From positions 12,828,704-12,892,703 of the forward strand of contig OZ038452.1 of assembly GCA_964036195.1 (NCBI GenBank): a DNA stretch of 64,000 nt. The letters run 5' to 3'. The DNA comes from Sphaerolaimus hirsutus. Taxonomy: Eukaryota; Nematoda; Chromadorea; Monhysterida; Sphaerolaimidae. A model generated the notes under the pieces. That model was not told the origin of the DNA, made no database searches, and saw only the letters and a list, made by a program, of their open reading frames with translations. The stretch's first letter is position 1. Each line of letters opens with the position of its first letter. The position numbers and the translations under genes were made by a program. This document shows, in pieces, positions 1 to 60,537 of the stretch.

Positions 1-3000
1 ACGGTGCCATTTTCATGGAGTGGCACCATGTACTCCAAAACGGCACCATTTTTATGGAGTGGCATCATCTACTCCAAAACGGCGCCATTTTCGTGGAGTG
101 GCACCATCTACTCCAAAATGGCGCCATTTTTGTGGAGTGGCGTCATCTACTCCAAAACGGTGCCATTTTCATGGAGTGGCACCATGTACTCCAAAACAAC
201 ACCATTTTTGTGGAGTGGCGTCATCTACTCCAAAATGGCGCCATTTTTATGGAGTGGCGTCATCTACTCCAAAACAGCGCCATTTTTATGGAGTGGCGTC
301 ATCTACTCCAAAATGGCACCATTTTTGTGGTGTGGCACCATCTACTCCAAAATGGCGCCATTTTTATGGAGTGGCACTATCTACTCCAAAACAGCGCCAT
401 TTTCGTGGAGTGGCACCATCTACTCCAAAATGGTGCCATTTTTATGGAGTGGTGTCATCTACTCTAAAACAGCGCCATCTTTGTGGAGTGGCACCATCTA
501 CTCCAAAATGGCGCCATTTTTATGGAGTGGCATCATCTACTCCAAAACAGTGCCATTTTCATGGAGTGGCACCATCTACTCCAAAACAGCGCTATTATCA
601 TGGAGTGGCACCATCTACACAAAATGGCGCCATTTTTATGGAGTGGCGTCATCTACTCCAAAACAGCACCATATTCGTGGAGTGGCACCATCTACTCCAA
701 AATGGTGCCATTTTTATGGAGTGGCATCATCTACTCCAAAACAGGCACCATTAAGTGGAGTGGCAAAATCTACTCCAAAATGGTGCCATTTTTATGGAGT
801 GGCGTCATCTACTCCAAAACGGCACCATTAAGTGGAGTGGCACCATCTACTCCAAAATGGTGCCATTTTTATGGAGTGGCACCATCTACTACAAAATGGC
901 TCCATTTTTATGGAGTGGCATCATCTACTCCAAAATGGCGCCATTTTCGTGGAGTGGCACCATCTACTCCAAAATGGTGCCATTTTTATGGAGTGGCACT
1001 ATCTACTCCAAAACAGCGCCATTTTCGTGGAGTGGCACCATCTACTCCAAAATGGCGCCATTTTTGTGGAGTGGCGTCATCTACTCCAAAACGGTGCCAT
1101 TTTCATGGAGTGGCACCATGTACTCCAAAACAACACCATTTTTGTGGAGTGGCGTCATCTACTCCAAAATGGCGCCATTTTTATGGAGTGGCGTCATCTA
1201 CTCCAAAACAGCGCCATTTTTATGGAGTGGCGTCATCTACTCCAAAATGGCACCATTTTTGTGGTGTGGCACCATCTACTCCAAAATGGTGCCATTTTTA
1301 TGGAGTGGTGTCATCTACTCTAAAACAGCGCCATCTTTGTGGAGTGGCACCATCTACTCCAAAATGGCGCCATTTTTATGGAGTGGCATCATCTACTCCA
1401 AAACAGTGCCATTTTCATGGAGTGGCACCATCTACTCCAAAACAGCGCTATTATCGTGGAGTGGCACCATCTACACAAAATGGCGCCATTTTTATGGAGT
1501 GGCGTCATCTACTCCAAAACAGCGCCGTCTTCGTGGAGTGGCGCCATCTACTCCAAAATGACCCATTTTTGTGGAGTGGCACCATCTACTCCAAAATGGC
1601 GCCATTTTTATGGAGTGGCGTCATCTACTCCAAAACAGCGCCATTTTTATGGAGTGGTGTCATCTACTCCAAAACGGTGCCATTTTCATGGAGTGGCACC
1701 ATGTACTCCAAAACGGCACCATTTTTATGGAGTGGCATCATCTACTCCAAAACGGCGCCATTTTCGTGGAGTGGCACCATCTACTCCAAAATGGCGCCAT
1801 TTTTGTGGAGTGGCGTCATCTACTCCAAAACGGTGCCATTTTCATGGAGTGGCACCATGTACTCCAAAACAACACCATTTTTGTGGAGTGGCGTCATCTA
1901 CTCCAAAATGGCGCCATTTTTATGGAGTGGCGTCATCTACTCCAAAACAGCGCCATTTTTATGGAGTGGCGTCATCTACTCCAAAATGGCACCATTTTTG
2001 TGGTGTGGCACCATCTACTCCAAAATGGCGCCATTTTTATGGAGTGGCACTATCTACTCCAAAACAGCGCCATTTTCGTGGAGTGGCACCATCTACTCCA
2101 AAATGGTGCCATTTTTATGGAGTGGTGTCATCTACTCTAAAACAGCGCCATCTTTGTGGAGTGGCACCATCTACTCCAAAATGGCGCCATTTTTATGGAG
2201 TGGCATCATCTACTCCAAAACAGTGCCATTTTCATGGAGTGGCACCATCTACTCCAAAACAGCGCTATTATCATGGAGTGGCACCATCTACACAAAATGG
2301 CGCCATTTTTATGGAGTGGCGTCATCTACTCCAAAACAGCACCATATTCGTGGAGTGGCACCATCTACTCCAAAATGGTGCCATTTTTATGGAGTGGCAT
2401 CATCTACTCCAAAACAGGCACCATTAAGTGGAGTGGCAAAATCTACTCCAAAATGGTGCCATTTTTATGGAGTGGCGTCATCTACTCCAAAACGGCACCA
2501 TTAAGTGGAGTGGCACCATCTACTCCAAAATGGTGCCATTTTTATGGAGTGGCACCATCTACTACAAAATGGCTCCATTTTTATGGAGTGGCATCATCTA
2601 CTCCAAAATGGCGCCATTTTCGTGGAGTGGCACCATCTACTCCAAAATGGTGCCATTTTTATGGAGTGGCACTATCTACTCCAAAACAGCGCCATTTTCG
2701 TGGAGTGGCACCATCTACTCCAAAATGGCGCCATTTTTGTGGAGTGGCGTCATCTACTCCAAAACGGTGCCATTTTCATGGAGTGGCACCATGTACTCCA
2801 AAACAACACCATTTTTGTGGAGTGGCGTCATCTACTCCAAAATGGCGCCATTTTTATGGAGTGGCGTCATCTACTCCAAAACAGCGCCATTTTTATGGAG
2901 TGGCGTCATCTACTCCAAAATGGCACCATTTTTGTGGTGTGGCACCATCTACTCCAAAATGGTGCCATTTTTATGGAGTGGTGTCATCTACTCTAAAACA

Positions 3001-4300
3001 GCGCCATCTTTGTGGAGTGGCACCATCTACTCCAAAATGGCGCCATTTTTATGGAGTGGCATCATCTACTCCAAAACAGTGCCATTTTCATGGAGTGGCA
3101 CCATCTACTCCAAAACAGCGCTATTATCGTGGAGTGGCACCATCTACACAAAATGGCGCCATTTTTATGGAGTGGCGTCATCTACTCCAAAACAGCGCCG
3201 TCTTCGTGGAGTGGCGCCATCTACTCCAAAATGACCCATTTTTGTGGAGTGGCACCATCTACTCCAAAATGGCGCCATTTTTATGGAGTGGCGTCATCTA
3301 CTCCAAAACAGCGCCATTTTTATGGAGTGGTGTCATCTACTCCAAAACGGTGCCATTTTCATGGAGTGGCACCATGTACTCCAAAACGGCACCATTTTTA
3401 TGGAGTGGCATCATCTACTCCAAAACGGCGCCATTTTCGTGGAGTGGCACCATCTACTCCAAAATGGCGCCATTTTTGTGGAGTGGCGTCATCTACTCCA
3501 AAACGGTGCCATTTTCATGGAGTGGCACCATGTACTCCAAAACAACACCATTTTTGTGGAGTGGCGTCATCTACTCCAAAATGGCGCCATTTTTATGGAG
3601 TGGCGTCATCTACTCCAAAACAGCGCCATTTTTATGGAGTGGCGTCATCTACTCCAAAATGGCACCATTTTTGTGGTGTGGCACCATCTACTCCAAAATG
3701 GCGCCATTTTTATGGAGTGGCACTATCTACTCCAAAACAGCGCCATTTTCGTGGAGTGGCACCATCTACTCCAAAATGGTGCCATTTTTATGGAGTGGTG
3801 TCATCTACTCTAAAACAGCGCCATCTTTGTGGAGTGGCACCATCTACTCCAAAATGGCGCCATTTTTATGGAGTGGCATCATCTACTCCAAAACAGTGCC
3901 ATTTTCATGGAGTGGCACCATCTACTCCAAAACAGCGCTATTATCGTGGAGTGGCACCATCTACACAAAATGGCGCCATTTTTATGGAGTGGCGTCATCT
4001 ACTCCAAAACAGCACCATATTCGTGGAGTGGCACCATCTACTCCAAAATGGTGCCATTTTTATGGAGTGGCATCATCTACTCCAAAACAGGCACCATTAA
4101 GTGGAGTGGCAAAATCTACTCCAAAATGGTGCCATTTTTATGGAGTGGCGTCATCTACTCCAAAACGGCACCATTAAGTGGAGTGGCACCATCTACTCCA
4201 AAATGGTGCCATTTTTATGGAGTGGCACCATCTACTACAAAATGGCTCCATTTTTATGGAGTGGCATCATCTACTCCAAAATGGCGCCATTTTCGTGGAG
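1..4300 (+). repeat. 1673-bp higher-order repeat, two full copies plus a partial
   Basis: The same ordered series of monomer variants restarts at 1, 1674 and 3347, a period of 1673 bp (about 43 monomers). The third copy departs from the pattern near 4300. Within each copy, a diagnostic 38-bp monomer with the core gcgctattatc recurs at spacings of about 855 and 818 bp, so the unit is itself a doubled block. Copies differ by single bases, for example tatcatgg near 598 and 2271 against tatcgtgg near 1453 and 3126. This near identity points to recent amplification of whole blocks. Confidence 0.9.
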
Positions 4301-7300
4301 TGGCACCATCTCCAAAATGGTGCCATTTTTATGGAGTGGCACTATCTACTCCAAAACAGCGCCATTTTCGTGGAGTGGCACCATCTACTCCAAAATGGTG
4401 CCATTTTTATGGAGTGGCGTCATCTACTCCAAAACAGTGCCATTTTCATGGAGTGGCACCATCTACTCCAAAATGGCGCCATTTTTATGGAGTGGCGTCA
4501 TCTACTCCAAAACAGCACCATTTTCATGGAGTGGCGTCATCTACTCCAAAATGGCGCCATTTTTTATGGAGTGGCGTCATCTACTCCAAAACAGCGCCAT
4601 TTTTATGGAGTGGCATCATCTACTCCAAGATGGCGCCGTTTTCGTGGAGTGGCACCATCTACTCCAAAATGGCGCCATTTTTATGGAGTGGCATTATCTA
4701 CTCCAAAATGGTGCCATTTTTATGGAGTGGCGTCATCTACTCCAAAACAGCGCCGTCTTCGTGGAGTGGCGCCATCTACTCCAAAATGACCCATTTTTGT
4801 GGAGTGGCACCATCTACTCCAAAATGGCACCATTTTTATGGAGTGGCATCATCTACTCCAAGATGGCGCCGTTTTCGTGGAGTGGCACCATCTACTCCAA
4901 AATGGCGCCATTTTTATGGAGTGGCATTATCTACTCCAAAATGGTGCCATTTTTATGGAGTGGCATCATCTACTCCAAAACAGCGCCATCTTCCTGGAGT
5001 GGCACCATCTACTCCAAAATGGCGCCATTTTTATGGAGTCGCATCATCTGCTCCAAAACGGTGCCATTTCCGTGGAGTGGCACCATCTACTCCAAAATGG
5101 CGCCATTTTTGTAGAGTGGTGTCATCTCCAAAACGGTGCCATTTTCATGGAGTGGCGTCATCTACTCCAAAACGGCGCCATTTTTATGGAGTGGCGTCAT
5201 CTACTCCAAAATGGCACCATTTTTGTGGAGTGGCACCATCTACTCCAAAATGGCGCCATTTTTATGGAGTGGCATCATCTACTCCAAGATGGCGCCGTTT
5301 TCGTGGAGTGGCACCATCTACTCCAAAATGGCGCCATTTTTATGGAGTGGCATTATCTACTCCAAAATGGTGCCATTTTTATGGAGTGGCGTCATCTACT
5401 CCAAAACAGTGCCATTTTCATGGAGTGGCACCATCTACTCCAAAATGGCGCCATTTTTATGGAGTGGCGTCATCTACTCCAAAACAGCACCATTTTTATG
5501 GAGTGGCGTCATCTACTCCAAAATGGCGCCATTTTTATGGAGTGGCGTCATCTACTCCAAAACAGCGCCATTTTTATGGAGTGGCATCATCTACTCCAAG
5601 ATGGCGCCGTTTTCGTGGAGTGGCACCATCTACTCCAAAATGGCGCCATTTTTATGGAGTGGCATTATCTACTCCAAAATGGTGCCATTTTTATGGAGTG
5701 GCGTCATCTACTCCAGAACAGCGCCGTCTTCGTGGAGTGGCGCCATCTACTCCAAAATGACCCATTTTTGTGGAGTGGCACCATCTACTCCAAAATGGCA
5801 CCATTTTTATGGAGTGGCATTATCTACTCCAAAATGGTGCCATTTTTATGGAGTGGCGTCATCTACTCCAAAACAGCGCCATCTTCCTGGAGTGGCACCA
5901 TCTAATCCAAAACGGCGCCATTTTTGTAGAGTGGCGTCATCTCCAAAACGGTGCCATTTTCATGGAGTGGCGTCATCTACTCCAAAACGGCGCCATTTTT
6001 ATGGAGTGGCGTCATCTACTCCAAAATGGCACCATTTTTGTGGAGTGGCACCATCTACTCCAAAATGGCGCCATTTTTATGGAGTGGCGTCATCTACTCC
6101 AAAACAGCACCATTTTTATGGAGTGGCGTCATCTACTCCAAAATGGCGCCATTTTTATGGAGTGGCGTCATCTACTCCAAAACAGCACCATTTTTATGGA
6201 GTGGCGTCATCTACTCCAAAATGGCGCCATTTTTATGGAGTGGCGTCATCTACTCCAAAATGGTGCCATTTTTATGGAGTGGCACCATCTACTCCAAAAT
6301 GGCGCCATTTTTGTAGAGTGGCGTCATCTACTCCAAAACGGTGCCATTTTCATGGAGTGGCATCATCTACTCCAAAACGGCGCCATTTTTATGGAGTGGC
6401 GTCATCTACTCCAAAATGGCACCATTTTTGTGGAGTGGCACCATCTACTCCAAAATGGCGCCATTTTTATGGAGTGGCGTCATCTACTCCAAAACAGCAC
6501 CATTTTTATGGAGTGGCGTCATCTACTCCAAAATGGTGCCATTTTTATGGAGTGGCGTCATCTACTCCAAAACAGTGCCATTTTCATGGAGTGGCACCAT
6601 CTACTCCAAAATGGCACCATTTTTATGGAGTGGCATCATCTACTCCAAGATGGCGCCATTTTCGTGGAGTGGCACCATCTACTCCAAAATGGCGCCATTT
6701 TTATGGAGTGGCATTATCTACTCCAAAATGGTGCCATTTTTATGGAGTGGCGTCATCTACTCCAAAACAGCGCCATCTTCCTGGAGTGGCACCATCTACT
6801 CCAAAATGGCGCCATTTTTATGGAGTCGCATCATCTGCTCCAAAACGGTGCCATTTCCGTGGAGTGGCACCATCTACTCCAAAATGGCGCCATTTTTGTA
6901 GAGTGGCGTCATCTACTCCAAAACGGTGCCATTTTCATGGAGTGGCGTCATCTACTCCAAAACGGCGCCATTTTTATGGAGTGGCGTCATCTACTCCAAA
7001 ATGGCACCATTTTTGTGGAGTGGCACCATCTACTCCAAAATGGCGCCATTTTTATGGAGTGGCGTCATCTACTCCAAAACAGCACCATTTTTATGGAGTG
7101 GCGTCATCTACTCCAAAATGGCGCCATTTTTATGGAGTGGCGTCATCTACTCCAAAATGGCACCATTTTTGTGGAGTGGCACCATCTACTCCAAAATGGC
7201 GCCATTTTTATGGAGTGGCGTCATCTACTCCAAAACAGCACCATTTTTATGGAGTGGCGTCATCTACTCCAAAATGGCGCCATTTTTATGGAGTGGCGTC

Positions 7301-9630
7301 ATCTACTCCAAAATGGTGCCATTTTTATGGAGTGGCACCATCTACTCCAAAATGGCGCCATTTTTGTAGAGTGGCGTCATCTACTCCAAAACGGTGCCAT
7401 TTTCATGGAGTGGCATCATCTACTCCAAAACGGCACCATTTTTATGGAGTGGCGTCATCTACTCCAAAATGGCACCATTTTTGTGGAGTGGCACCATCTA
7501 CTCCAAAATGGCGCCATTTTTATGGAGTGGCGTCATCTACTCCAAAATGGCACCATTTTTGTGGAGTGGCACCATCTACTCCAAAATGGTGCCATTTTTA
7601 TGGAGTGGCGTCATCTACTCCAAAACAGCACCATTTTTATGGAGTGGCGTCATCTACTCCAAAATGGTGCCATTTTTATGGAGTGGCGTCATCTACTCCA
7701 AAACAGTGCCATTTTCATGGAGTGGCACCATCTACTCCAAAATGGCGCCATTTTTATGGAGTGGCGTCATCTACTCCAAAACAGCGCCATCTTCGTGGAG
7801 TGGCGCCATCTACTCCAAAATGACCCATTTTTGTGGAGTGGCACCATCTACTCCAAAATGGCACCATTTTTATGGAGTGGCATCATCTACTCCAAGATGG
7901 CGCCGTTTTCGTGGAGTGGCACCATCTACTCCAAAATGGCGCCATTTTTATGGAGTGGCATTATCTACTCCAAAATGGTGCCATTTTTATGGAGTGGCGT
8001 CATCTACTCCAAAACAGCGCCATCTTCCTGGAGTGGCACCATCTACTCCAAAATGGCACCATTTTTATGGAGTCGCATCATCTGCTCCAAAACGGTGCCA
8101 TTTCTGTGGAGTGGCACCATCTACTCCAAAATGGCGCCATTTTTGTAGAGTGGCGTCATCTACTCCAAAACGGTGCCATTTTCATGGAGTGGCGTCATCT
8201 ACTCCAAAACGGCGCCATTTTTATGGAGTGGCGTCATCTACTCCAAAATGGCACCATTTTTGTGGAGTGGCACCATCTACTCCAAAATGGCACCATTTTT
8301 ATGGAGTGGCACTATCTACTCCAAAACAGCGCCATTTTCGTGGAGTGGCACCATCTACTCCAAAATGGTGCCATTTTTATGGAGTGGCGTCATCTACTCT
8401 AAAACAGCGCCATCTTTGTGGAGTGGCACCATCTACTCCAAAATGGTGCCACTTTTATGGAGTGGCGTCATCTACTCCAAAACAGGCACCATTAAGTGGA
8501 GTGGCATCATCTACTCCAAAATGGTGCCATTTTTATGGAGTGGCGTCATCTACTCCAAAACAGCGCCATCTTCCTGGAGTGGCACCATCTACTCCAAAAT
8601 GGCGCCATTTTTATGGAGTGGCATCATCTGCTCCAAAACGGCGCCATTTCTGTGGAGTGGCACCATCTACTCCAAAATGGCGCCATTTTTGTGGACTGGC
8701 GTCATCTACTCCAAAACGGTGCCATTTTCATGGAGTGGCACCATGTACTCCAAAATGGCACCATTTTTATGGAGTGGCGTCATCTACTCCAAAATGGCGC
8801 CATTTTTATGGAGTGGCGTCATCTACTCCAAAATGGCACCATTTTTGTGGAGTGGCACCATCTACTCCAAAATGGCACCATTTTTATGGAGTGGCACTAT
8901 CTACTCAAAAACAGCGCCATTTTCGTGGATTGGCACCATCTACTCCAAAATGGTGCCATTTTTATGGAGTGGCGTCATCTACTCTAAAACAGCGCCATCT
9001 TTGTGGAGTGGCACCATCTACTCCAAAATGGTGCCATTTTTATGGAGTGGCGTCATCTACTTTAAAACAGGCACCATTAAGTGGAGTGGCAACATCTACT
9101 CCAAAATGGTGCCATTTTTATGGAGTGGCGTCATCTACTCCAAAACACCACCATTAAGTGGAGTGGCACCATCTACTCCAAAATGGTGCCATTTTTATGG
9201 AGTGGCACCATCTACTACAAAATGGCGCCATTTTTATGGAGTGGCACCATCTACTACAACATGGCGCCATTTTTATGGAGTGGCATCATCTACTCCAAAA
9301 TGGCGCAATTTTCGTGGAGTGGCACCATCTACTCCAAAATGGTGCCATTTTTATGGAGTGGTGTCATCTACTCCAAAACGGTGCCATTTTCATGGAGTGG
9401 CACCATGTACTCCAAAACGGCACCATTTTTATGGAGTGGCGTCATCTACTCCAAAACGGCGCCATTTTCGTGGAGTGGCACCATCTACTCCAAAATGGCG
9501 CCATTTTTGTGGAGTGGTGTCATCTACTCCAAAACAGTGCTATTTTCATGGAGTGGCACCATGTACTCCAAAACGGCACCATTTTTATGGAGTGGCGTCA
9601 TCTACTCCAAAATGGCGCCATTTTTATGGA
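1646..9630 (+). repeat. About 8-kb intra-array segmental duplication, copy A
   Basis: The order of monomer variants matches 20060-27968. The offset is 18414 bp at the left end, 18417 after a 3-bp deletion in this copy near 4310, then 18495, and finally 18339 bp. The steps after the first are multiples of 39 (78 and 156), so whole monomers were gained or lost in register. Shared landmarks include the paired 1673-bp repeat end, monomers carrying GTAGAGTGG in place of GTGGAGTGG (near 5111, 6313 and 6898), and the TAGTGG-flanking CACCACCATTAAG monomer near 9150. Boundaries are placed where the variant order stops matching and are accurate to about one monomer. Confidence 0.85.
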
Positions 9631-12600
9631 GTGGTGTCATCTACTCCAAAACAGCGCTATCTTCGTGGAGTGGCGCCATCTACTCCAAAATGACCCATTT
9701 TTGTGGAGTGGCACCATCTACTCCAAAATGGCACCATTTTTATGGAGTGGCATCATCTACTCCAAAATGGTGCCATTTAAATGGAGTGGCGTCATCTACT
9801 CCAAAACAGCGCCATCTTCCTGGAGTGGCACCATCTACTCCAAAATGGTGCCATTTTTGTGGAGTGGTGTCATCTACTCCAAAACAGTGCCATTTTCATG
9901 GAGTGGCACCATGTACTCCAAAACGGCATCATTTTTATGGAGTGGCGTCATCTACTCCAAAATGGTGCCATTTTTATGGAGTGGCATCATCTGCTCCAAA
10001 ACGGCACCATTTCTGTGGAGTGGCACCATCTACTCCAAAATGGTGCCATTTTTGTGGAGTGGCGTCATCTACTCCAAAACGGCACCATTTTCATTGAGTG
10101 GCACCATCTACTCCAAAATGGTGCCATTTTTATGGAGTGGCGTCATCTACTCCAAAACGGCACCATTTTCATTGAGTGGCACCATCTACTCCAAAATGGT
10201 GCCATTTTTATGGAGTGGCGTCATCTACTCCAAAACAGCGCCATCTTCCTGGAGTGGCACCATCTACTCCAAAATGGTGCCATTTTTATGGAGTGGCGTC
10301 ATCTACTCCAAAACAGTGCCATTTTCATGGAGTGGCACCATCTACTCCAAAATGGCGCCATTTTTATGGAGTGGCGTCATCTACTCCAAAACAGCGTTAT
10401 TTTTATGGAGTGGCGTCATCTACTCCAAAATGGCGCCATTTTTATGGAGTGGCGTCATCTACTCCAAAACAGCGCCATCTTCCTGGAGTGGCACCATCTA
10501 CTCCAAAATGGTGCCATTTTTATGGAGTGGCGTCATCTACTCCAAAACAGTGCCATTTTCATGGAGTGGCACCATCTACTCCAAAATGGCGCCATTTTTA
10601 TGGAGTGGCGTCATCTACTCCAAAACAGCATTATTTTTATGGAGTGGCGTCATCTACTCCAAAATGGCGCTATTTTTATGGAGTGGCGTCATCTACTCCA
10701 AAACAGCGCCATTTTTATGGAGTGGCGTCATCTACTCAAAAATGGCACCATTTTCGTGGAGTGGCACTATCTACTCCAAAATGGTGCCATTTTTATGGTA
10801 TGGTGTCATCTACTCCAAAACAGCGCCATCTTCGTGGAATGGCGCCATCTACTCCAAAATGACCCATTTTTGTGGAGTGGCGTCATCTACTCCAAAATGG
10901 CGCCATTTTTATGGAGTGGCGTCATCTACTCCAAAATGGCGCCATTTTTATGGAGTGGCGTCATCTACTCAAAAATGGCACCATTTTTGTGGAGTGGCAC
11001 CATCTACTCCAAAATGGCACCATTTTTATGGAGTGGCACTATCTACTCCAAAACAGCACCATTTTCATGGAGTGGCACCATCTACTCCAAAATGGCACCA
11101 TTTTTATGGAGTGGCATCATCTTCTCCAAAACGGCACCATTTTCATTGAGTGGCACCATCTACTCCAAAATGGTGCCATTTTTATGGAGTGGCGTCATCT
11201 ACTCCAAAACAGCGCCATCTTCCTGGAGTGGCACCATCTACTCCAAAATGGTGCCATTTTTATGGAGTGGCGTCATCTACTCCAAAACAGCGCCATTTTT
11301 ATGGAGTGGCGTCATCTACTCAAAAATGGCACCATTTTCGTGGAGTGGCACCATCTACTCCAAAATGGTGCCATTTTTATGGAGTGGCGTCATCTACTCC
11401 AAAACAGCGCCATCTTCCTGGAGTGGCACCATCTACTCCAAAATGGCGCCATTTTTATGGAGTGGCGTCATCTACTCCAAAACAGCGTTATTTTTATGGA
11501 GTGGCGTCATCTACTCCAAAATGGCGCCATTTTTATGGAGTGGCGTCATCTACTCCAAAACAGCGCCATTTTTATGGAGTGGCGTCATCTACTCAAAAAT
11601 GGCACCATTTTCGTGGAGTGGCACTATCTACTCCAAAATGGTGCCATTTTTATGGAGTGGCATCATCTTCTCCAAAACGGCACCATTTTCATTGAGTGGC
11701 ACCATCTACTCCAAAATGGTGCCATTTTTATGGAGTGGCGTCATCTACTCCAAAACAGCGCCATCTTCCTGGAGTGGCACCATCTACTCCAAAATGGCGC
11801 CATTTTTATGGAGTGGCGTCATCTACTCCAAAACAGCGTTATTTTTATGGAGTGGCGTCATCTACTCCAAAATGGCGCCATTTTTATGGAGTGGCGTCAT
11901 CTACTCCAAAACAGCGCCATTTTTATGGAGTGGCGTCATCTACTCAAAAATGGCACCATTTTCGTGGAGTGGCACTATCTACTCCAAAATGGTGCCATTT
12001 TTATGGTATGGTGTCATCTACTCCAAAACAGCGCCATCTTCGTGGAATGGCGCCATCTACTCCAAAATGACCCATTTTTGTGGAGTGGCACCATCTACTC
12101 CAAAATGGCACCATTTTTATGGAGTGGCATCATCTACTCCAAAATGGTGCCATTTTTATGGAGTGGCGTCATCTACTCCAAAACAGCGCCATCTTCCTGG
12201 AGTGGCATCATCTACTCCAAAATGGTGCCATTTTTATGGAGTGGCGTCATCTACTCCAAAACAGCGCCATCTTCCTGGAGTGGCACCATCTACTCCAAAA
12301 TGGCGCCTTTTTTATGGAGTGGCATCATCTGCTCCAAAACGGCACCATTTCTGTGGAGTGGCACCATCTACTCCAAAATGGTGCCATTTTTGTGGAGTGG
12401 CGTCATCTACTCCAAAACGATGCCATTTTCATGGAGTGGCACCATGTACTCCAAAATGGCACCATTTTTATGGAGTGGCGTCATCTACTCCAAAATGGCG
12501 CCATTTTTATGGAGTGGCGTCATCTACTCCAAAACGGCGCCATTTTTATGGAGTGGCGTCATCTACTCCAAAATGGCACCATTTTTGTGGAGTGGCACCA

Positions 12601-12846
12601 TCTACTCCAAAATGGTGCCATTTTTATGGAGTGGCGTCATCTACTCTAAAACAGCGCCATCTTTGTGGAGTGGCACCATCTACTCCAAAATGGTGCCATT
12701 TTTATGGAGTGGCGTCATCTACTCCAAAACAGGCACCATTTTTATGGAGTGGCATCATCTACTCCAAAATGGCGCAATTTTCGTGGAGTGGCACCATCTA
12801 CTCCAAAATGGTGCCATTTTTATGGAGTGGTGTCATCTACTCCAAA

Positions 12847-13840
12847 ACGGTGCCATTTTCATGGAGTGGCACCATGTACTCCAAAACGGCACCATTTTTA
12901 TGGAGTGGCATCATCTACTCCAAAACGGCGCCATTTTCGTGGAGTGGCACCATCTACTCCAAAATGGCGCCATTTTTGTGGAGTGGCGTCATCTACTCCA
13001 AAACGGTGCCATTTTCATGGAGTGGCACCATGTACTCCAAAACAACACCATTTTTATGGAGTGGCGTCATCTACTCCAAAATGGCGCCATTTTTATGGAG
13101 TGGCGTCATCTACTCCAAAACAGCGCCATTTTTATGGAGTGGCGTCATCTACTCCAAAATGGCACCATTTTTGTGGTGTGGCACCATCTACTCCAAAATG
13201 GCGCCATTTTTATGGAGTGGCACTATCTACTCCAAAACAGCGCCATTTTCGTGGAGTGGCACCATCTACTCCAAAATGGTGCCATTTTTATGGAGTGGTG
13301 TCATCTACTCTAAAACAGCGCCATCTTTGTGGAGTGGCACCATCTACTCCAAAATGGCGCCATTTTTATGGAGTGGCATCATCTACTCCAAAACAGTGCC
13401 ATTTTCATGGAGTGGCACCATCTACTCCAAAACAGCGCTATTATCGTGGAGTGGCACCATCTACACAAAATGGCGCCATTTTTATGGAGTGGCGTCATCT
13501 ACTCCAAAACAGCACCATATTCGTGGAGTGGCACCATCTACTCCAAAATGGTGCCATTTTTATGGAGTGGCATCATCTACTCCAAAACAGGCACCATTAA
13601 GTGGAGTGGCAAAATCTACTCCAAAATGGTGCCATTTTTATGGAGTGGCGTCATCTACTCCAAAACGGCACCATTAAGTGGAGTGGCACCATCTACTCCA
13701 AAATGGTGCCATTTTTATGGAGTGGCACCATCTACTACAAAATGGCTCCATTTTTATGGAGTGGCATCATCTACTCCAAAATGGCGCCATTTTCGTGGAG
13801 TGGCACCATCTACTCCAAAATGGTGCCATTTTTATGGAGT
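12847..13840 (+). repeat. Third copy of a 1-kb monomer block
   Basis: This block repeats the variant order of 1674-2667 at an offset of 11173 bp, including the gcgctattatcg monomer, the 38-bp ctacacaaaatgg monomer and the two CATTAAGTGG monomers. The same block is found again inside 20060-27968. The upstream context (caggcaccattttta, then gcgcaattttcg) is shared with the segment just before 20060. The 20-kb duplication was therefore probably copied from a relative of this block and not directly from the 1.6-kb one. The junction history is inferred. Confidence 0.8.
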
Positions 13841-36900: not shown

Positions 36901-39900
36901 ACCATCTACTACAAAATGGCGCCATTTTTATGGAGTGGCATCATCTACTCCAAAATGGCACCATTTTTGTGGAGTGGCACCATCTACTCCAAAATGGCAC
37001 TATTTTTATGGAGTGGCACTATCTACTCCAAAACAGCGCCATTTTCGTGGATTGGCACCATCTACTCCAAAATGGTGCCATTTTTATGGAGTGGCGTCAT
37101 CTACTCTAAAACAGCGCCATCTTTGTGGAGTGGCACCATCTACTCCAAAATGGTGCCATTTTTATGGAGTGGCGTCATCTACTCCAAAACAGGCACCATT
37201 AAGTGGAGTGGCAACATCTACTCCAAAATGGTGCCATTTTTATGGAGTGGCGTCATCTACTCCAAAACACCACCATTAAGTGGAGTGGCACCATCTACTC
37301 CAACATGGTGCCATTTTTATGGAGTGGCACCATCTACTACAAAATGGCGCCATTTTTATGGAGTGGCACCATCTACTACAAAATGGCGCCATTTTTATGG
37401 AGTGGCATCATCTACTCCAAAATGGCGCAATTTTCGTGGAGTGGCACCATCTACTCCAAAATGGTGCCATTTTTATGGAGTGGTGTCATCTACTCCAAAA
37501 CGGTGCCATTTTCATGGAGTGGCACCATGTACTCCAAAACGGCACCATTTTTATGGAGTGGCGTCATCTACTCCAAAACGGCGCCATTTTCGTGGAGTGG
37601 CACCATCTACTCCAAAATGGCGCCATTTTTGTGGAGTGGCGTCATCTACTCCAAAACGGTGCCATTTTCATGGAGTGGCACCATGTACTCCAAAACGGCA
37701 CCATTTTTATGGAGTGGCGTCATCTACTCCAAAATGGCGCCATTTTTATGGAGTGGCGTCATCTACTCCAAAACAGTGCCATTTTTATGGAGTGGCGTCA
37801 TCTACTCCAAAACGGCGCCATTTTCGTGGAGTGGCACCATCTACTACAACATGGCGCCATTTTTATGGAGTGGCATCATCTACTCCAAAATGGCGCAATT
37901 TTTGTGGAGTGGCACCATCTACTCCAAAATGGTGCCATTTTTATGGAGTGGTGTCATCTACTCCAAAACGGTGCCATTTTCATGGAGTGGCGTCATCTAC
38001 TCCAAAACAGCGCCATTTTTATGGAGTGGCGTCATCTACTCCAAAATGGCACCATTTTTGTGGAGTGGCACCATCTACTCCAAAATGGCACCATTTTTAT
38101 GGAGTGGCACTATCTACTCCAAAACAGCGCCATTTTCGTGGAGTGGCACCATCTACTCCAAAATGGTGCCATTTTTATGGAGTGGCGTCATCTACTCTAA
38201 AACAGCGCCATCTTTGTGGAGTGGCACCATCTACTCCAAAATGGTGCCACTTTTATGGAGTGGCGTCATCTACTCCAAAACAGGCACCATTAAGTGGAGT
38301 GGCATCATCTACTCCAAAATGGTGCCATTTTTATGGAGTGGCGTCATCTACTCCAAAACAGCGCCATCTTCCTGGAGTGGCACCATCTACTCCAAAATGG
38401 CGCCATTTTTATGGAGTGGCATCATCTGCTCCAAAACGGCGCCATTTCTGTGGAGTGGCACCATCTACTCCAAAATGGCACCATTTTTGTGGACTGGCGT
38501 CATCTACTCCAAAACGGTGCCATTTTCATGGAGTGGCACCATGTACTCCAAAATGGCACCATTTTTATGGAGTGGCGTCATCTACTCCAAAATGGCGCCA
38601 TTTTTATGGAGTGGCGTCATCTACTCCAAAACGGCGCCATTTTTATGGAGTGGCGTCATCTACTCCAAAATGGCACCATTTTTGTGGAGTGGCACCATCT
38701 ACTCCAAAATGGCACCATTTTTATGGAGTGGCACTATCTACTCAAAAACAGCGCCATTTTCGTGGATTGGCACCATCTACTCCAAAATGGTGCCATCTTT
38801 ATGGAGTGGCGTCATCTACTCTAAAACAGCGCCATCTTTGTGGAGTGGCACCATCTACTCCAAAATGGTGCCATTTTTATGGAGTGGCATCATCTACTTT
38901 AAAACAGGCACCATTAAGTGGAGTGGCAACATCTACTCCAAAATGGTGCCATTTTTATGGAGTGGCGTCATCTACTCCAAAACACCACCATTAAGTGGAG
39001 TGGCACCATCTACTCCAAAATGGTGCCATTTTTATGGAGTGGCACCATCTACTACAAAATGGCGCCATTTTTATGGAGTGGCACCATCTACTACAACATG
39101 GCGCCATTTTTATGGAGTGGCATCATCTACTCCAAAATGGCGCAATTTTTGTGGAGTGGCACCATCTACTCCAAAATGGTGCCATTTTTATGGAGTGGTG
39201 TCATCTACTCCAAAACGATGCCATTTTCATGGAGTGGCACCATGTACTCCAAAACGGCACCATTTTTATGGAGTGGCGTCATCTACTCCAAAACGGCGCC
39301 ATTTTCGTGGAGTGGCACCATCTACTCCAAAATGGCGCCATTTTTGTGGAGTGGCGTCATCTACTCCAAAACAGTGCTATTTTCATGGAGTGGCACCATG
39401 TACTCCAAAACGGCACCATTTTTATGGAGTGGCGTCATCTACTCCAAAATGGCGCCATTTTTATGGAGTGGCGTCATCTACTCCAAAACGGCGCCATTTT
39501 TATGGAGTGGCGTCATCTACTCCAAAATGGCACCATTTTTGTGGAGTGGCACCATCTACTCCAAAATGGCACCATTTTTATGGAGTGGCACTATCTACTC
39601 AAAAACAGCGCCATTTTCGTGGATTGGCACCATCTACTCCAAAATGGTGCCATTTTTATGGAGTGGCGTCATCTACTCTAAAACAGTGCCATCTTTGTGG
39701 AGTGGCACCATCTACTCCAAAATGGTGCCATTTTTATGGAGTGGCGTCATCTACTCCAAAACAGGCACCATTAAGTGGAGTGGCAACCTCTACTCCAAAA
39801 CGGTGCCATTTTCATGGAGTGGCACCATGTACTCCAAAACGGCACCATTTTTATGGAGTGGCGTCATCTACTCCAAAACGGCGCCATTTTTATGGAGTGG

Positions 39901-39904
39901 CACC
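27969..39904 (+). repeat. Mosaic higher-order repeat domain
   Basis: A landmark monomer with aaaacaccaccattaag is found before about 27497, 28705, 30264, 32525, 34591, 36852, 37280 and 38995. Several spacings (1208, 1559, 2261 and 2066 bp) differ by whole multiples of 39. A long block, 34514-35500, is repeated at 38918-39904 with an offset of 4404 bp. The ctactacaacatgg and ctaccacaaaatgg monomers are specific to this domain and the right part of the array and are absent from the first 9 kb, so array subregions have homogenised separately. Confidence 0.82.
35493..35500 (+). other. Paralogous empty site for the hAT insertion
   Basis: GTGGCACC here lies in a stretch of variant monomers whose left and right context matches the two sides of the transposon at 39905-40972. 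The left side continues as ...ggcgccatttttatggagtggcacc and the right side as atctactccaaaacggcacc followed by a tttttgtgg monomer. The surrounding block is the 4404-bp-offset partner of the disrupted copy. It shows the pre-insertion sequence exactly, with one copy of the octamer where the occupied site has two. Confidence 0.9.
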
Positions 39905-39920
39905 TAGGGTGGCAGAATTT

Positions 39921-40092
39921 ACCGTACCGTACCGTACCGTACCGCATTTTTGGAAAAATTACCGTACCGTACCGTACCGTTTACCACATTTTTAGAAATT
40001 TACCGTACCGTACCGCGTACCGCATTTTCCAAAATTTACCGTACCGTACCGCGTACCGCACTCATTTACCGCGGAAAATGCGGTAAATTTTA
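39921..40092 (+). repeat. Left subterminal ACCGTACCG repeat cluster of the hAT element
   Basis: Four blocks, each of 2-4 tandem TACCG pentamers, are separated by A/T-rich spacers such as catttttggaaaaatt. The cluster closes with taccgcggaaaatgcggtaa, an imperfect palindrome. Subterminal repeats like these commonly act as transposase binding sites in hAT elements; that role is inferred here. Confidence 0.85.
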
Positions 40093-40814
40093 CTCAGATT
40101 GACCCTAAAAATGCACCTTAAATTGACTTTAAAATGTGGTGTTCTGCAAATTTTTTGCGCGCAAGCGCGCAAGTTTGACAAAATTGTTTCAACTGATTTG
40201 AAGCTTTTCCATTTGCATATGCAATATGGCTGTAACTCTTCATTTACATTAGTATTATGTGTTTTTAAAATCAAGCCATGTGCTTCAAATCGCACTGTAG
40301 GTGTTTTACATCACCCTCAATGTTTTGAGCTTATTTGTTGTAGGTACATATGTTTGATGTAGGGTAGTATACAAAAGGTAATCAAAAGAAAAATGAATGT
40401 TTGAATGAAATGACAACTTTGTTGTTGAATTGAAATCTGTTGCTTTGAAATCTGTGGCAAATTGAAATCTAATGGCTACACAGCAGGGGTCTCCAATGGG
40501 GGGTTGAAGTGTGTCCCCAAATTGAATTCATGGCTTATTGCCATATACACTTATATACGTTTTTTTTACCATTTTCACCCACTTTTAGCAATTTTTCACC
40601 CACTTTTAGCAATTTTTCTCCATTTCTTCCTTCTGAACCTTGAAAAAGCCTATATATTGAACCACTGCATTGTGGTTAATGTAATTCTATGTTATCGCAC
40701 TGTTATTGTGTTCTAAAGTCCATTAACACATTGCATAATTCAATTTAGTGTCAATTCATGAAGTAAAAGTTGTCTGTAGTCCAGCATTGGTACATTTCTG
40801 ACAAGCAAAAATTT

Positions 40815-40960
40815 ACCGTACCGTACCGTACCGCGAACCGCACTTTTCAGATTTACCGTACCGTACCGTTTACCGCAAAATTGAAGATTTACCGTACCGT
40901 ACCGTTTACCGCAAAAGAGAAAATTTACCATACCGTACGGTTTACCGCAAGACCGTACCG
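40815..40960 (+). repeat. Right subterminal ACCGTACCG repeat cluster of the hAT element
   Basis: Four further TACCG pentamer blocks with TTTACCGCAAAA-type endings lie close to the right terminus. They have the same orientation as the left cluster instead of being inverted, so only the outer 12 bp and not the subterminal repeats form the terminal inverted repeat. One block carries taccataccgtacgg, a decayed copy. Confidence 0.85.
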
Positions 40961-41903
40961 TCTGCCACCCTAGTGGCACCATCTACTCCAAAACGGCACC
41001 ATTTTTGTGGAGTGGCACCATCTACTCCAAAATGGTGCCATTTTTATGGAGTGGTGTCATCTACTCCAAAACGGTGCCATTTTCATGGAGTGGCACCATG
41101 TACTCCAAAACGGCACCATTTTTATGGAGTGGCGTCATCTACTCCAAAACGGCGCCATTTTTATGGAGTGGCACCATCTACCACAAAATGGCGCCATTTT
41201 TATGGAGTGGCACCATCTACTACAACATGGCGCCATTTTTATGGAGTGGCATCATCTACTCCAAAATGGCGCTATTTTTGTGGAGTGGCACCATCTACTC
41301 CAAAATGGTGCCATTTTTATGGAGTGGTGTCATCTACTCCAAAACGGTGCCATTTTCATGGAGTGGCACCATGTACTCCAAAACGGCACCATTTTTATGG
41401 AGTGGCGTCATCTACTCCAAAACGGCGCCATTTTCGTGGAGTGGCACCATCTACTCCAAAATGGCGCCATTTTTGTGGAGTGGTGTCATCTACTCCAAAA
41501 CGGTGCTATTTTCATGGAGTGGCACCATGTACTCCAAAACGGCACCATTTTTATGGAGTGGCGTCATCTACTCCAAAATGGCGCCATTTTTATGGAGTGG
41601 CGTCATCTACTCCAAAACGGCGCCATTTTTATGGAGTGGCGTCATCTACTCCAAAATGGCACCATTTTTGTGGAGTGGCACCATCTACTCCAAAATGGCA
41701 CCATTTTTATGGAGTGGCACTATCTACTCCAAAACAGCGCCATTTTCGTGGATTGGCACCATCTACTCCAAAATGGTGCCATTTTTATGGAGTGGCGTCA
41801 TCTACTCTAAAACAGCGCCATCTTTGTGGAGTGGCACCATCTACTCCAAAATGGTGCCATTTTTATGGAGTGGCGTCATCTACTCCAAAACAGGCACCAT
41901 TAA

Positions 41904-44565
41904 GTGGAGTGGCAACATCTACTCCAAAATGGTGCCATTTTTATGGAGTGGCGTCATCTACTCCAAAACACCACCATTAAGTGGAGTGGCACCATCTACT
42001 CCAAAATGGTGCCATTTTTATGGAGTGGCACCATCTACTACAAAATGGCGCCATTTTTATGGAGTGGCATCATCTACTCCAAAATGGCACCATTTTTGTG
42101 GAGTGGCACCATCTACTCCAAAATGGCACTATTTTTATGGAGTGGCACTATCTACTCCAAAACAGCGCCATTTTCGTGGATTGGCACCATCTACTCCAAA
42201 ATGGTGCCATTTTTATGGAGTGGCGTCACCTACTCTAAAACAGCGCCATCTTTGTGGAGTGGCACCATCTACTCCAAAATGGTGCCATTTTTATGGAGTG
42301 GCGTCATCTACTCCAAAACAGGCACCATTAAGTGGAGTGGCAACATCTACTCCAAAATGGTGCCATTTTTATGGAGTGGCGTCATCTACTCCAAAAAACC
42401 ACCATTAAGTGGAGTGGCACCATCTACTCCAACATGGTGCCATTTTTATGGAGTGGCACCATCTACTACAAAATGGCGCCATTTTTATGGAGTGGCACCA
42501 TCTACTACAAAATGGCGCCATTTTTATGGAGTGGCATCATCTACTCCAAAATGGCGCAATTTTCGTGGAGTGGCACCATCTACTCCAAAATGGTGCCATT
42601 TTTATGGAGTGGTGTCATCTACTCCAAAACGGTGCCATTTTCATGGAGTGGCACCATGTACTCCAAAACGGCACCATTTTTATGGAGTGGCGTCATCTAC
42701 TCCAAAACGGCGCCATTTTTGTGGAGTGGCACCATCTACTCCAAAATGGCGCCATTTTTGTGGAGTGGCGTCATCTACTCCAAAACGGTGCCATTTTCAT
42801 GGAGTGGCACCATGTACTCCAAAACGGCACCATTTTTATGGAGTGGCGTCATCTACTCCAAAACGGCGCCATTTTTATGGAGTGGCACCATCTACCACAA
42901 AATGGCGCCATTTTTATGGAGTGGCACCATCTACTACAACATGGCGCCATTTTTATGGAGTGGCATCATCTACTCCAAAATGGCGCAATTTTTGTGGAGT
43001 GGCACCATCTACTCCAAAATGGTGCCATTTTTATGGAGTGGTGTCATCTACTCCAAAACGGTGCCATTTTCATGGAGTGGCACCATGTACTCCAAAACGG
43101 CACCATTTTTATGGAGTGGCGTCATCTACTCCAAAACGGCGCCATTTTCGTGGAGTGGCACCATCTACTCCAAAATGGCGCCATTTTTGTGGAGTGGTGT
43201 CATCTACTCCAAAACGGTGCTATTTTCATGGAGTGGCACCATGTACTCCAAAACGGCACCATTTTTATGGAGTGGCGTCATCTACTCCAAAATGGCGCCA
43301 TTTTTATGGAGTGGCGTCATCTACTCCAAAACGGCGCCATTTTTATGGAGTGGCGTCATCTACTCCAAAATGGCACCATTTTTGTGGAGTGGCACCATCT
43401 ACTCCAAAATGGCACCATTTTTATGGAGTGGCACTATCTACTCCAAAACAGCGCCATTTTCGTGGATTGGCACCATCTACTCCAAAATGGTGCCATTTTT
43501 ATGGAGTGGCGTCATCTACTCTAAAACAGCGCCATCTTTGTGGAGTGGCACCATCTACTCCAAAATGGTGCCATTTTTATGGAGTGGCGTCATCTACTCC
43601 AAAACAGGCACCATTAAGTGGAGTGGCAACATCTACTCCAAAATGGTGCCATTTTTATGGAGTGGCGTCATCTACTCCAAAACACCACCATTAAGTGGAG
43701 TGGCACCATCTACTCCAAAATGGTGCCATTTTTATGGAGTGGCACCATCTACTACAAAATGGCGCCATTTTTATGGAGTGGCATCATCTACTCCAAAATG
43801 GCACCATTTTTGTGGAGTGGCACCATCTACTCCAAAATGGCACTATTTTTATGGAGTGGCACTATCTACTCCAAAACAGCGCCATTTTCGTGGATTGGCA
43901 CCATCTACTCCAAAATGGTGCCATTTTTATGGAGTGGCGTCACCTACTCTAAAACAGCGCCATCTTTGTGGAGTGGCACCATCTACTCCAAAATGGTGCC
44001 ATTTTTATGGAGTGGCGTCATCTACTCCAAAACAGGCACCATTAAGTGGAGTGGCAACATCTACTCCAAAATGGTGCCATTTTTATGGAGTGGCGTCATC
44101 TACTCCAAAAAACCACCATTAAGTGGAGTGGCACCATCTACTCCAACATGGTGCCATTTTTATGGAGTGGCACCATCTACTACAAAATGGCGCCATTTTT
44201 ATGGAGTGGCACCATCTACTACAAAATGGCGCCATTTTTATGGAGTGGCATCATCTACTCCAAAATGGCGCAATTTTCGTGGAGTGGCACCATCTACTCC
44301 AAAATGGTGCCATTTTTATGGAGTGGTGTCATCTACTCCAAAACGGTGCCATTTTCATGGAGTGGCACCATGTACTCCAAAACGGCACCATTTTTATGGA
44401 GTGGCGTCATCTACTCCAAAACGGCGCCATTTTTGTGGAGTGGCACCATCTACTCCAAAATGGCGCCATTTTTGTGGAGTGGCGTCATCTACTCCAAAAC
44501 GGTGCCATTTTCATGGAGTGGCACCATGTACTCCAAAACGGCACCATTTTTATGGAGTGGCGTCA
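41904..44565 (+). repeat. 1714-bp higher-order repeat pair
   Basis: 41904-42850 matches 43618-44565 at a constant offset of 1714 bp, including rare variants such as a gcgtcacctactct monomer (near 42228 and 43940) and a ctccaaaaaaccacc monomer (near 42391 and 44105). A 428-bp sub-period (41981 to 42409 and 43695 to 44123) is also seen at 36852 to 37280, linking this segment to the array left of the transposon. Confidence 0.85.
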
Positions 44566-47500
44566 TCTACTCCAAAATGGCGCCATTTTTATGGAGTGGC
44601 GTCATCTACTCCAAAACAGTGCCATTTTTATGGAGTGGCGTCATCTACTCCAAAATGGCACCATTTTTGTGGAGTGGCACCATCTACTCCAAAATGGCAC
44701 CATTTTTATGGAGTGGCACTATCTACTCCAAAATGGTGCCATTTTTATGGAGTGGCGTCATCTACTCTAAAACAGCGCCATCTTTGTGGAGTGGCACCAT
44801 CTACTCCAAAATGGTGCCATTTTTATTGAGTGGCGTCATCTACTCCAAAACAGGCACCTTTAAGTGGAGTGGCAACATCTACTCCAATATGGTGCCATTT
44901 TTATGGAGTGGCGTCATCTACTCCAAAACACCACCATTAAGTGGAGTGGCACCATCTACTCCAAAATGGTGCCATTTTTATGGAGTGGCATCATCTACTC
45001 CAAAATGGCGCAATTTTTGTGGAGTGGCACCATCTACTCCAAAATGGTGCCATTTTTATAGAGTGGTGTCATCTACTCCAAAACGGTGCCATTTTCATGG
45101 AGTGGCACCATGTACTCCAAAACGGCACCATTTTTATGGAGTGGCATCATCTACTCCAAAACGGCGCCATTTTCGTGGAGTGGCACCATCTACTCCAAAA
45201 TGGTGCCATTTTTATGGAGTGGCGTCATCTACTCTAAAACAGCGCCATCTTTGTGGAGTGGCACCATCTACTCCAAAATGGTGCCATTTTTATGGAGTGG
45301 CACTATCTACTCCAAAACAGCGCTATTATCGTGGAGTGGCAACATCTACTCCAAAATGGTGCCATTTTTATGGAGTGGCGTCATCTACTCCAAAACACCA
45401 CCATTAAGTGGAGTGGCACCATCTACTCCAACATGGTGCCATTTTTATGGAGTGGCACCATCTACTACAAAATGGCGCCATTTTTATGGAGTGGCACCAT
45501 CTACTACAAAATGGCGCCATTTTTATGGAGTGGCATCATCTACTCCAAAATGGCGCAATTTTCGTGGAGTGGCACCATCTACTCCAAAATGGTGCCATTT
45601 TTATGGAGTGGTGTCATCTACTCCAAAACGGTGCCATTTTCATGGAGTGGCACCATGTACTCCAAAACGGCACCATTTTTATGGAGTGGCGTCATCTACT
45701 CCAAAACGGCGCCATTTTCGTGGAGTGGCACCATCTACTCCAAAATGGCGCCATTTTTGTGGAGTGGCGTCATCTACTCCAAAACGGTGCCATATTCATG
45801 GAGTGGCACCATGTACTCCAAAACGGCACCATTTTTATGGAGTGGCGTCATCTACTCCAAAATGGCGCCATTTTTATGGAGTGGCGTCATCTACTCCAAA
45901 ACAGTGCCATTTTTATGGAGTGGCGTCATCTACTCCAAAATGGCACCATTTTTGTGGAGTGGCACCATCTACTCCAAAATGGCACCATTTTTATGGAGTG
46001 GCACTATCTACTCCAAAATGGTGCCATTTTTATGGAGTGGCGTCATCTACTCTAAAACAGCGCCATCTTTGTGGAGTGGCACCATCTACTCCAAAATGGT
46101 GCCATTTTTATTGAGTGGCGTCATCTACTCCAAAACAGGCACCTTTAAGTGGAGTGGCAACATCTACTCCAATATGGTGCCATTTTTATGGAGTGGCGTC
46201 ATCTACTCCAAAACACCACCATTAAGTGGAGTGGCACCATCTACTCCAAAATGGTGCCATTTTTATGGAGTGGCATCATCTACTCCAAAATGGCGCAATT
46301 TTTGTGGAGTGGCACCATCTACTCCAAAATGGTGCCATTTTTATGGAGTGGCACTATCTACTCCAAAACAGCGCTATTATCGTGGAGTGGCAACATCTAC
46401 TCCAAAATGGTGCCATTTTTATGGAGTGGCGTCATCTACTCCAAAACACCACCATTAAGTGGAGTGGCACCATCTACTCCAACATGGTGTCATTTTTATG
46501 GAGTGGCACCATCTACTACAAAATGGCGCCATTTTTATGGAGTGGCACCATCTACTACAAAATGGCGCCATTTTTATGGAGTGGCATCATCTACTCCAAA
46601 ATGGCGCAATTTTCGTGGAGTGGCACCATCTACTCCAAAATGGTGCCATTTTTATGGAGTGGTGTCATCTACTCCAAAACGGTGCCATTTTCATGGAGTG
46701 GCACCATGTACTCCAAAACGGCACCATTTTTATGGAGTGGCGTCATCTACTCCAAAACGGCGCCATTTTCGTGGAGTGGCACCATCTACTCCAAAATGGC
46801 GCCATTTTTGTGGAGTGGCGTCATCTACTCCAAAACGGTGCCATTTTCATGGAGTGGCACCATGTACTCCAAAACGGCACCATTTTTATGGAGTGGCGTC
46901 ATCTACTCCAAAATGGCGCCATTTTTATGGAGTGGCGTCATCTACTCCAAAACAGTGCCATTTTTATGGAGTGGCGTCATCTACTCCAAAATGGCACCAT
47001 TTTTGTGGAGTGGCACCATCTACTCCAAAATGGCACCATTTTTATGGAGTGGCACTATCTACTCCAAAATGGTGCCATTTTTATGGAGTGGCGTCATCTA
47101 CTCTAAAACAGCGCCATCTTTGTGGAGTGGCACCATCTACTCCAAAATGGTGCCATTTTTATTGAGTGGCGTCATCTACTCCAAAACAGGCACCTTTAAG
47201 TGGAGTGGCAACATCTACTCCAATATGGTGCCATTTTTATGGAGTGGCGTCATCTACTCCAAAACACCACCATTAAGTGGAGTGGCACCATCTACTCCAA
47301 AATGGTGCCATTTTTATGGAGTGGCATCATCTACTCCAAAATGGCGCAATTTTTGTGGAGTGGCACCATCTACTCCAAAATGGTGCCATTTTTATAGAGT
47401 GGTGTCATCTACTCCAAAACGGTGCCATTTTCATGGAGTGGCACCATGTACTCCAAAACGGCACCATTTTTATGGAGTGGCGTCATCTACTCCAAAACGG

Positions 47501-47843
47501 CGCCATTTTCGTGGAGTGGCACCATCTACTCCAAAATGGTGCCATTTTTATGGAGTGGCGTCATCTACTCTAAAACAGCGCCATCTTTGTGGAGTGGCAC
47601 CATCTACTCCAAAATGGTGCCATTTTTATGGAGTGGCACTATCTACTCCAAAACAGCGCTATTATCGTGGAGTGGCAACATCTACTCCAAAATGGTGCCA
47701 TTTTTATGGAGTGGCGTCATCTACTCCAAAACACCACCATTAAGTGGAGTTGCACCATCTACTCCAACATGGTGCCATTTTTATGGAGTGGCACCATCTA
47801 CTACAAAATGGCGCCATTTTTATGGAGTGGCACCATCTACTAC
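44123..47843 (+). repeat. Higher-order repeat with 1285- and 1051-bp periods
   Basis: Equivalent landmark monomers (aacaccaccattaag followed by ctactccaacatgg) fall near 44123, 45408 and 46459, giving periods of 1285 and 1051 bp. A second landmark, ggcacctttaagtgg, falls at about 44853, 46138 and 47189 with the same spacings. The difference, 234 bp, is six monomers. The first unit differs from the others by whole-monomer losses. Confidence 0.85.
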
Positions 47844-60529: not shown

Positions 60530-60537
60530 CTACTCAC

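Follow-up and report, generated by a model that had tools for sequence, protein, structure and literature searches.

How does a unit of only 39 bp come to fill tens of kilobases at one place in a genome, and does such an array mark a centromere? This question is raised by a stretch of 64,000 nucleotides (the window) from the nematode Sphaerolaimus hirsutus (assembly GCA_964036195.1, contig OZ038452.1, hereafter C3, positions 12,828,704 to 12,892,703), most of which is a giant minisatellite. We conclude that this array is probably a stand-alone satellite that grew from a minisatellite inside a transposon and was reworked by local unequal exchange. Tandem Repeats Finder (TRF) reported a single array at window positions 6-47846, with a period of 39, 1,227.8 copies (insert counted), 83% matches and 1% indels, which bears out the original prediction of a giant 39-bp minisatellite of at least 46.8 kb. 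Parsing the window array minus its insert yielded 1,200 monomers of 134 types, comprising 1,133 of 39 bp, 58 of 38 bp, five of 36 bp and four of 40 bp. All of them run head to tail on the plus strand, as predicted for about 1,200 monomers without an orientation switch, and neither the window array nor the two 10-kb pieces left of the window yielded a monomer on the reverse strand.

Two features of the array go beyond the original prediction: it is interrupted by a 1,068-bp transposon, and it begins about 10.3 kb left of the window. Of the two 10-kb pieces on that side (L032 and L037; L numbers denote pieces and loci of the assembly), the nearer is array throughout, with 256 monomer matches and 0 reversed, and the array starts in the farther one, about 260 bases before its right end. 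Because the array overruns the left edge of the window, its total length as assembled is about 58.1 kb including the insert, from about C3:12818443 to C3:12876549. Over this whole array we counted 1,459 anchors, corresponding to about 1,463 monomers. No N bases occur in the window or in either of the two left pieces. The assembly includes at least eleven contigs of 23.9-34.0 Mb and a 14,754-bp mitochondrial contig (C762, 17% GC), in which COX1 reads TGA as Trp and AGR/ATA sites, judged by eye, fit Ser/Met, in line with invertebrate code 5.

Within the array, variant monomers are organized into nested higher-order repeats (HORs), and these are real. Run counts over the whole array used 1,458 units, five of them of double length. 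The longest runs of identical monomers occurred at offsets of 2452 bp (62 monomers, the strongest), 1673 bp (57), 1714 bp (40), 1559 bp (36), 1440 bp (32) and 1012 bp (25), with shorter runs at 2261 bp (15), 1285 bp (14) and 1051 bp (14) and weaker ones at 1208 bp (8) and 2066 bp (6). When the order of monomers was shuffled 20 times, the longest runs at any offset were just 3 or 4. Every period named in the original prediction was found again, 1208 and 2066 being weaker than the others, and 1,042 of the 1,458 units belong to runs of 14 monomers or more that recur exactly. In-register identity was measured for eight block pairs. Five are listed in Table 1 (two at 1673 bp and one each at 2452, 1714 and 1559 bp, spanning 95.7-100%), and the other three reached 99.9% (1012 bp), 99.1% (4404-bp offset) and 98.1% (1440 bp). 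Matches out of register beside these eight pairs were about 87-91% identical. The multimeric blocks are more alike than single monomers, the mark of a satellite or minisatellite with HORs. On a larger scale, a segment of nearly 10 kb recurs at a shift of about 18.4 kb (Table 1), the next-best register giving 90.8%. Among the papers listed in a literature search none used the term 39-bp, and we have no verified precedent for HORs in a unit of about this size.

The insert allows one step of this history to be ordered. We take it to be hAT-like from its 8-bp target-site duplication and its terminal YAGGG (here TAGGG). A 200-base probe of the site minus the insert found an empty paralogue, matching at every base, about 4.4 kb upstream (Table 1), and the second-best match had 10 mismatches. 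This empty site lies inside the block at the 4,404-bp offset, which is 99.1% identical to its partner. The insertion is therefore younger than that block duplication: a hAT-like element hit the array after one block had been duplicated.

We then asked where else the unit occurs. The exact core TGGAGTGGCNNCATCTACTCCAAAA has 1,050 matches in the 348.5-Mb assembly (969 forward, 81 reverse), and 925 of them (758 + 162 + 5; 88%) are at the giant locus. A 701-bp array probe gave at least 234 matches genome-wide. Among the matches listed were eight chromosome-scale contigs (C1, C2, C3, C4, C7, C9, C14 and C15) plus small contigs, and the arrays elsewhere were short and in both orientations. From these listed matches we picked by eye 26 clusters outside the window; further clusters exist. 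Nineteen were fetched at useful length, two on C1 (L035 and L036) in part and five not at all, and L013 and L014 together represent one locus. In 18 of the 19 loci the short array lies inside a transposon, ten belonging to a foldback family (family A) and eight to an asymmetric, hairpin-ended family (family B). Ten of the 18 (seven A, three B) show both ends of the element. Since the 39-bp unit resides in short transposon arrays elsewhere, the giant array looks like a transposon-borne repeat expanded at one place.

These results also bear on the suggestion in the original prediction that the array might be centromeric or heterochromatic. The array and its nested HORs stand, but that hint is unsupported, with 925 of the 1,050 exact cores at one locus and 18 of the 19 other loci in transposons. 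The proposed search of the unit against the rest of the assembly did recover relatives, but those listed form short arrays that, at 18 of the 19 loci read, are transposon-borne. Among the matches listed we found no large arrays on most or all chromosomes, as a karyotype-wide centromeric satellite would have; with 88% of exact cores in one place, the giant array is not a common centromere repeat. Separately, the two partly fetched clusters on C1 (about 19.29 and 19.49 Mb) carry a third variant, with a consensus ending CATTCACGT, in clusters of up to about 12 kb.

Family A is a foldback element, with long inverted arms containing tandem repeats, terminal inverted repeats (TIRs) and target-site duplications. 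The ten copies have an outer 388 bp in common (95.7-99.2% pairwise identity) and the same endpoint to within a few bases. All seven copies with both ends in the fetched DNA carry the inverted terminal sequence TGAGGCATCTAGTTCCG and are flanked by identical 2-bp target duplications (five AT, two TT). The 39-bp arrays are oppositely oriented in the two arms at nine of the ten loci; in L024, the DNA fetched showed no array on the far side. Complete copies measure 3.6-8.4 kb (six with a computed length). The family A TIR has 462 exact copies in the genome, against 0 for a reversed control pattern. Among 100 of these 462 matches examined, 68 pair up convergently within 10 kb (34 pairs), and there was no divergent pair. 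The convergent pairs are mostly about 800-950 bp apart, and, judging by their length, these short pairs probably lack 39-bp arrays.

Some family A copies hold further repeats. Besides the 39-bp array, L012, L023, L030 and L031 contain another tandem repeat, of about 90 bp (TTTCACAGCAATTTTGAAAA...GATCAGCAGATG), in both orientations; it adjoins the 39-bp array in L024 as well. The spacer between the two arrays of L012 contains a 429-bp direct repeat, 98.6% identical, that starts with TG and ends with CA. By eye, its copies are positioned as the long terminal repeats (LTRs) of a short nested LTR element would be within the family A copy.

Family B is built differently. All eight loci share the 5' end ATC(G/A)GGTGGGCG, and the orientation of the 39-bp array relative to this end is constant in all eight. 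A probe of the first 293 bases gave at least 41 matches (40 of 927 candidates were scored), 34 of the 41 aligning from base one. Twenty of these 34 were sliced: all 20 begin ATC, and 17 begin ATCGGGTGGGCG. The flanks preceding the starts are unrelated by eye, except in one pair: L041 and L042 (C16, about 11.13 Mb) are two copies 8.4 kb apart with a left flank in common, so that element and surroundings were probably duplicated together. The first 59 nt of the element form a hairpin (-27.5 kcal/mol, z -7.0), and the 3' side consists of a palindrome whose arms are roughly 270 bp long. Of the eight loci, L017, L018 and L022 show the outer end of this 3' part, which is interrupted, truncated or rearranged in the other five. 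From 20 further 3' slices we set aside three inner palindrome arms (L061, L066 and L074); five slices (L068-L072) have one flank in common, maybe from another context, and L064 and L067 likewise have a flank in common. The 11 independent outer 3' ends read GGA/T in nine cases, GG/T in L058 and GA/T in L062 (slash, element border), with a T following the element in all 11.

These ends give family B some Helitron-like features. The 5' TC with insertion at A^T was seen as A/TC in 20 of 20 slices, a pattern indistinguishable from a 2-bp AT duplication. Helitrons end 3' in CTRR, after a short hairpin; family B instead has GGA/T (nine of 11) after a long palindrome. We therefore did not file family B as a Helitron, as the TC start and A^T are present but the CTRR end is not. 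Nor does it insert at TT as Helentrons and HINE elements do, A^T being used instead. A Helentron would be expected to have a 5' subterminal inverted repeat with a complementary copy, and a 3' one: the 5' 59 nt form a hairpin, and by eye no 3' subterminal inverted repeat was seen in the loci read. Genes of predicted Helitron type exist in the genome: four matches to the Helitron-like N-terminal domain PF14214 lie on three unplaced contigs, those at C558:9873-10424 and C149:10288-10863 being in open frames of 2,613 and 2,528 codons.

By consensus, the giant array is nearest to the family B arrays. Counting 39-bp monomers only, its consensus agrees at 35-37 of 39 positions with B arrays, at 32-33 with A arrays, at 35 with L027 and at 31 with the partial C1 arrays. 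Measured against the B consensus, 2,779 of 5,423 mismatches (51%) are C-to-T or G-to-A changes in six CpG columns of the 39. The position pairs 8-9, 25-26 and 28-29 are almost always CG, TG or CA, and positions 37-38 are mostly TA in the element arrays. The observed/expected ratio of CpG is 0.50-0.55 in the array versus 0.76 in the right flank. About half of the monomer differences thus look like CpG decay, which suggests past methylation of the repeat. At positions 6-11, GGCGCC is the commonest form in 20 of 21 element or partial arrays (GGCACC in L021), and the giant array holds a mixture of GGCACC, GGCGTC and others. Compared with the fetched loci, the last 300 bases at the left edge of the giant array have no match, and at its right edge matches to other dispersed repeats begin about 57 bases out.

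We propose that the locus arose when an array of family B type, whole or in part, underwent amplification in place, and that this array lost, or never had, element ends. Blocks of 26-63 monomers would then have been duplicated by repeated exchange out of register or by replication slippage, giving rise to the HORs, and the same process could have produced the one duplication of nearly 10 kb. Several observations weigh against this origin. A search of the window and of L037, a 10-kb piece on its left, turned up neither a family A terminus nor a family B 5' end (the family B 3' end was not part of this search), so that the giant locus itself does not show the passage from element to array. Exact monomer sharing with the fetched element arrays is restricted to one type (1/26 in L018, 2/52 in L019, 0 in 19 other arrays), which makes the link one of family and not of donor copy. 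CpG change does not account for the remaining half of the mismatches, among them the third commonest (C to T at position 10). Among the other loci, L027 (one of 19) belongs to neither family, eight of the 18 element loci show one end only, and seven of the 26 clusters lack a full reading. The reverse order of events must also be counted here, namely that the 39-bp array has long belonged to the host and that A and B transposons captured pieces of it. Two elements with very different ends do carry the unit, and capture of host tandem repeats by Helitrons has been described (PMC12628747). However, the element arrays are mainly GGCGCC at positions 6-11 and the giant array is mixed; this dominance makes them unlike samples of the present giant array, and an older state of the array could be the source. 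We regard a host origin as unlikely.

An origin from a transposon would be compatible with the array now being the centromere or core heterochromatin of C3, a chromosome-scale contig. The array is long, HOR-rich and in an inner position (12.82-12.88 of 31.8 Mb), but with 925 of 1,050 exact cores here it cannot be a shared centromere repeat, and we consider such a role very unlikely. Less probable still is that the assembly has collapsed or wrongly expanded the repeat. Repeats of this kind are badly handled by assemblers, and the first 1673-bp pair and the 2452-bp pair are indeed 100% and 99.96% identical; yet there is no N, the remaining HOR pairs differ by 1-4%, and the lone 1,068-bp insertion inside has a perfect target duplication plus a matching empty paralogue. 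Coding is the least likely of these readings. The length of 39 is divisible by 3, and open reading frames (ORFs) reach 1,753 codons because none of the three forward frames of the consensus contains a stop, as would suit a repeat protein with a 13-residue unit. A stop-free unit opens three frames at once anyway, however, and the frame is shifted by 62 of the 67 off-length monomers (58 of 38 bp and four of 40 bp). CpG transitions make up half of the mismatches. We favour the stand-alone satellite of transposon origin, whose features are collected in Table 1.

Table 1 Features of the giant 39-bp array on C3 (positions in the window)
Feature	Position	Strand	Basis
39-bp tandem array, left part	1..39904, extends ~10.3 kb further left to ~C3:12818443	+	TRF, parsing, L032, L037
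39-bp tandem array, right part, abrupt end against unrelated sequence	40973..47846	+	TRF and sequence reading
hAT-like insertion, 1,068 bp, no gene seen; 12-bp TIR TAGGGTGGCAGA, subterminal TACCG repeats	39905..40972	.	array parsing
Target-site duplication GTGGCACC, 8 bp, left copy	39897..39904	+	array parsing
Target-site duplication GTGGCACC, 8 bp, right copy	40973..40980	+	array parsing
Empty paralogous copy of insertion site, 200/200 bases	35401..35600	+	200-base probe of site minus insert
1673-bp HOR (43 monomers), two copies, 100% identical over 1673 bp	17..3362	+	block alignment
2452-bp HOR (63 monomers), two copies, 99.96%; includes 1012- and 1440-bp periods	14848..19751	+	block alignment
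1673-bp HOR, second pair, 95.7%	20065..23410	+	block alignment
1559-bp HOR, two copies, 99.0%	28357..31474	+	block alignment
1714-bp HOR, two copies, 99.0%	41282..44709	+	block alignment
Large-scale duplication, ~1-9700 vs ~18400-28200, 93.5%	1..28200	+	alignment

Scans of the window with Rfam (gathering thresholds) and for tRNAs returned nothing. The TRF consensus of the unit folds at -9.6 kcal/mol (z -4.8 versus shuffles) and one common monomer has a z of -3.1; two CpG-rich versions of the unit fold weakly (z -1.9 and -1.0), and for this reason we set aside a hairpin function of the unit. The right flank of the array contains other repeats. A foldback-like element at window positions 56943-57115 / 57499-57671 has inverted arms of 173 nt, 77% complementary, built of short GTTAAGAGTTGA-type tandem repeats, and ends that by eye resemble GGTTCCGCAAGTGG / CTACTTGCGGAACTGG. 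A smaller inverted-repeat element at 59471-59513 / 59617-59659 has arms of 43 nt that are 88% complementary and contain GAAGTGAAA-type repeats; its ends, AGTTCTGCAAAATGAG / CTCATTTTGCGGAACT, are similar to those of the first, to which it is perhaps related. By eye, dispersed-looking stretches rich in GGCGCC/ATGGCGCCAT occur at 48600-48680, 50905-50980, 58600-58650, 59020-59110 and 60340-60530, and this palindrome is also part of the 39-bp unit.

Short arrays within transposons are a recognized or proposed source of satellites when they expand (PMC12628747; PMC7004042), and by analogy with Tetris and Cg_HINE the locus described here would belong to a kind of system that is already known. Tetris/TIR-220 of Drosophila virilis is, like family A, a non-autonomous foldback element with tandem repeats in its inverted arms, and its repeat, like the 39-bp unit, also occurs in satellite-like arrays of kilobase size (PMC4079207). 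The Tetris unit is about 220 bp long, as against 39 bp here; in the nematode, moreover, a second, non-foldback element carries the unit, and the giant array is closer to the arrays of that element. The Cg_HINE elements of Crassostrea gigas, which are non-autonomous Helentrons, share with family B a dispersed distribution, conserved ends, a central tandem array and, if B makes no AT duplication, the absence of a target duplication (PMC7492417; PMC8268682). Unlike them, family B uses A^T instead of TT as its insertion site and carries at its 3' end a palindrome with arms of roughly 270 bp. The oyster repeats also stand alone, the longest CgiSat01 array having 232 monomers over about 40 kb with an assembly gap; the giant array is longer and free of gaps, and it has HORs, of which the oyster passages hold no mention, the term higher-order being absent from PMC8268682. 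Satellites derived from LTR retrotransposons in Lathyrus sativus likewise started from short element-internal arrays with occasional expansion, but in plant LTR elements and mainly at primary constrictions (PMC7004042). In its repeated blocks of diverged monomers, the giant array resembles the HOR arrays of alpha satellite, where such blocks recur at 97-100% identity (PMC8122249) and the monomers are 171 bp and centromeric (PMC9221937), whereas here they are 39 bp and concentrated at one locus. Four literal stretches of the 39-bp unit had no match in the papers searched; repeat libraries were outside this search, and the unit may correspond to a named satellite.

A locus at which element-borne relatives, a giant stand-alone array, its history of block duplication and a later insertion can be read together, without gaps, is valuable because it allows the events to be put in order. 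A bolder reading, to which we attach a low probability, is that the near-palindromic 39-bp unit could be a portable, hairpin-forming and amplifiable module, adopted by two transposon families that differ in mechanism and able to break free and seed giant HOR arrays, in which case C3 would hold a satellite caught at birth and dated by a nested insertion. The presence of the 39-bp unit in two unlike elements makes repeat exchange between transposon families testable.

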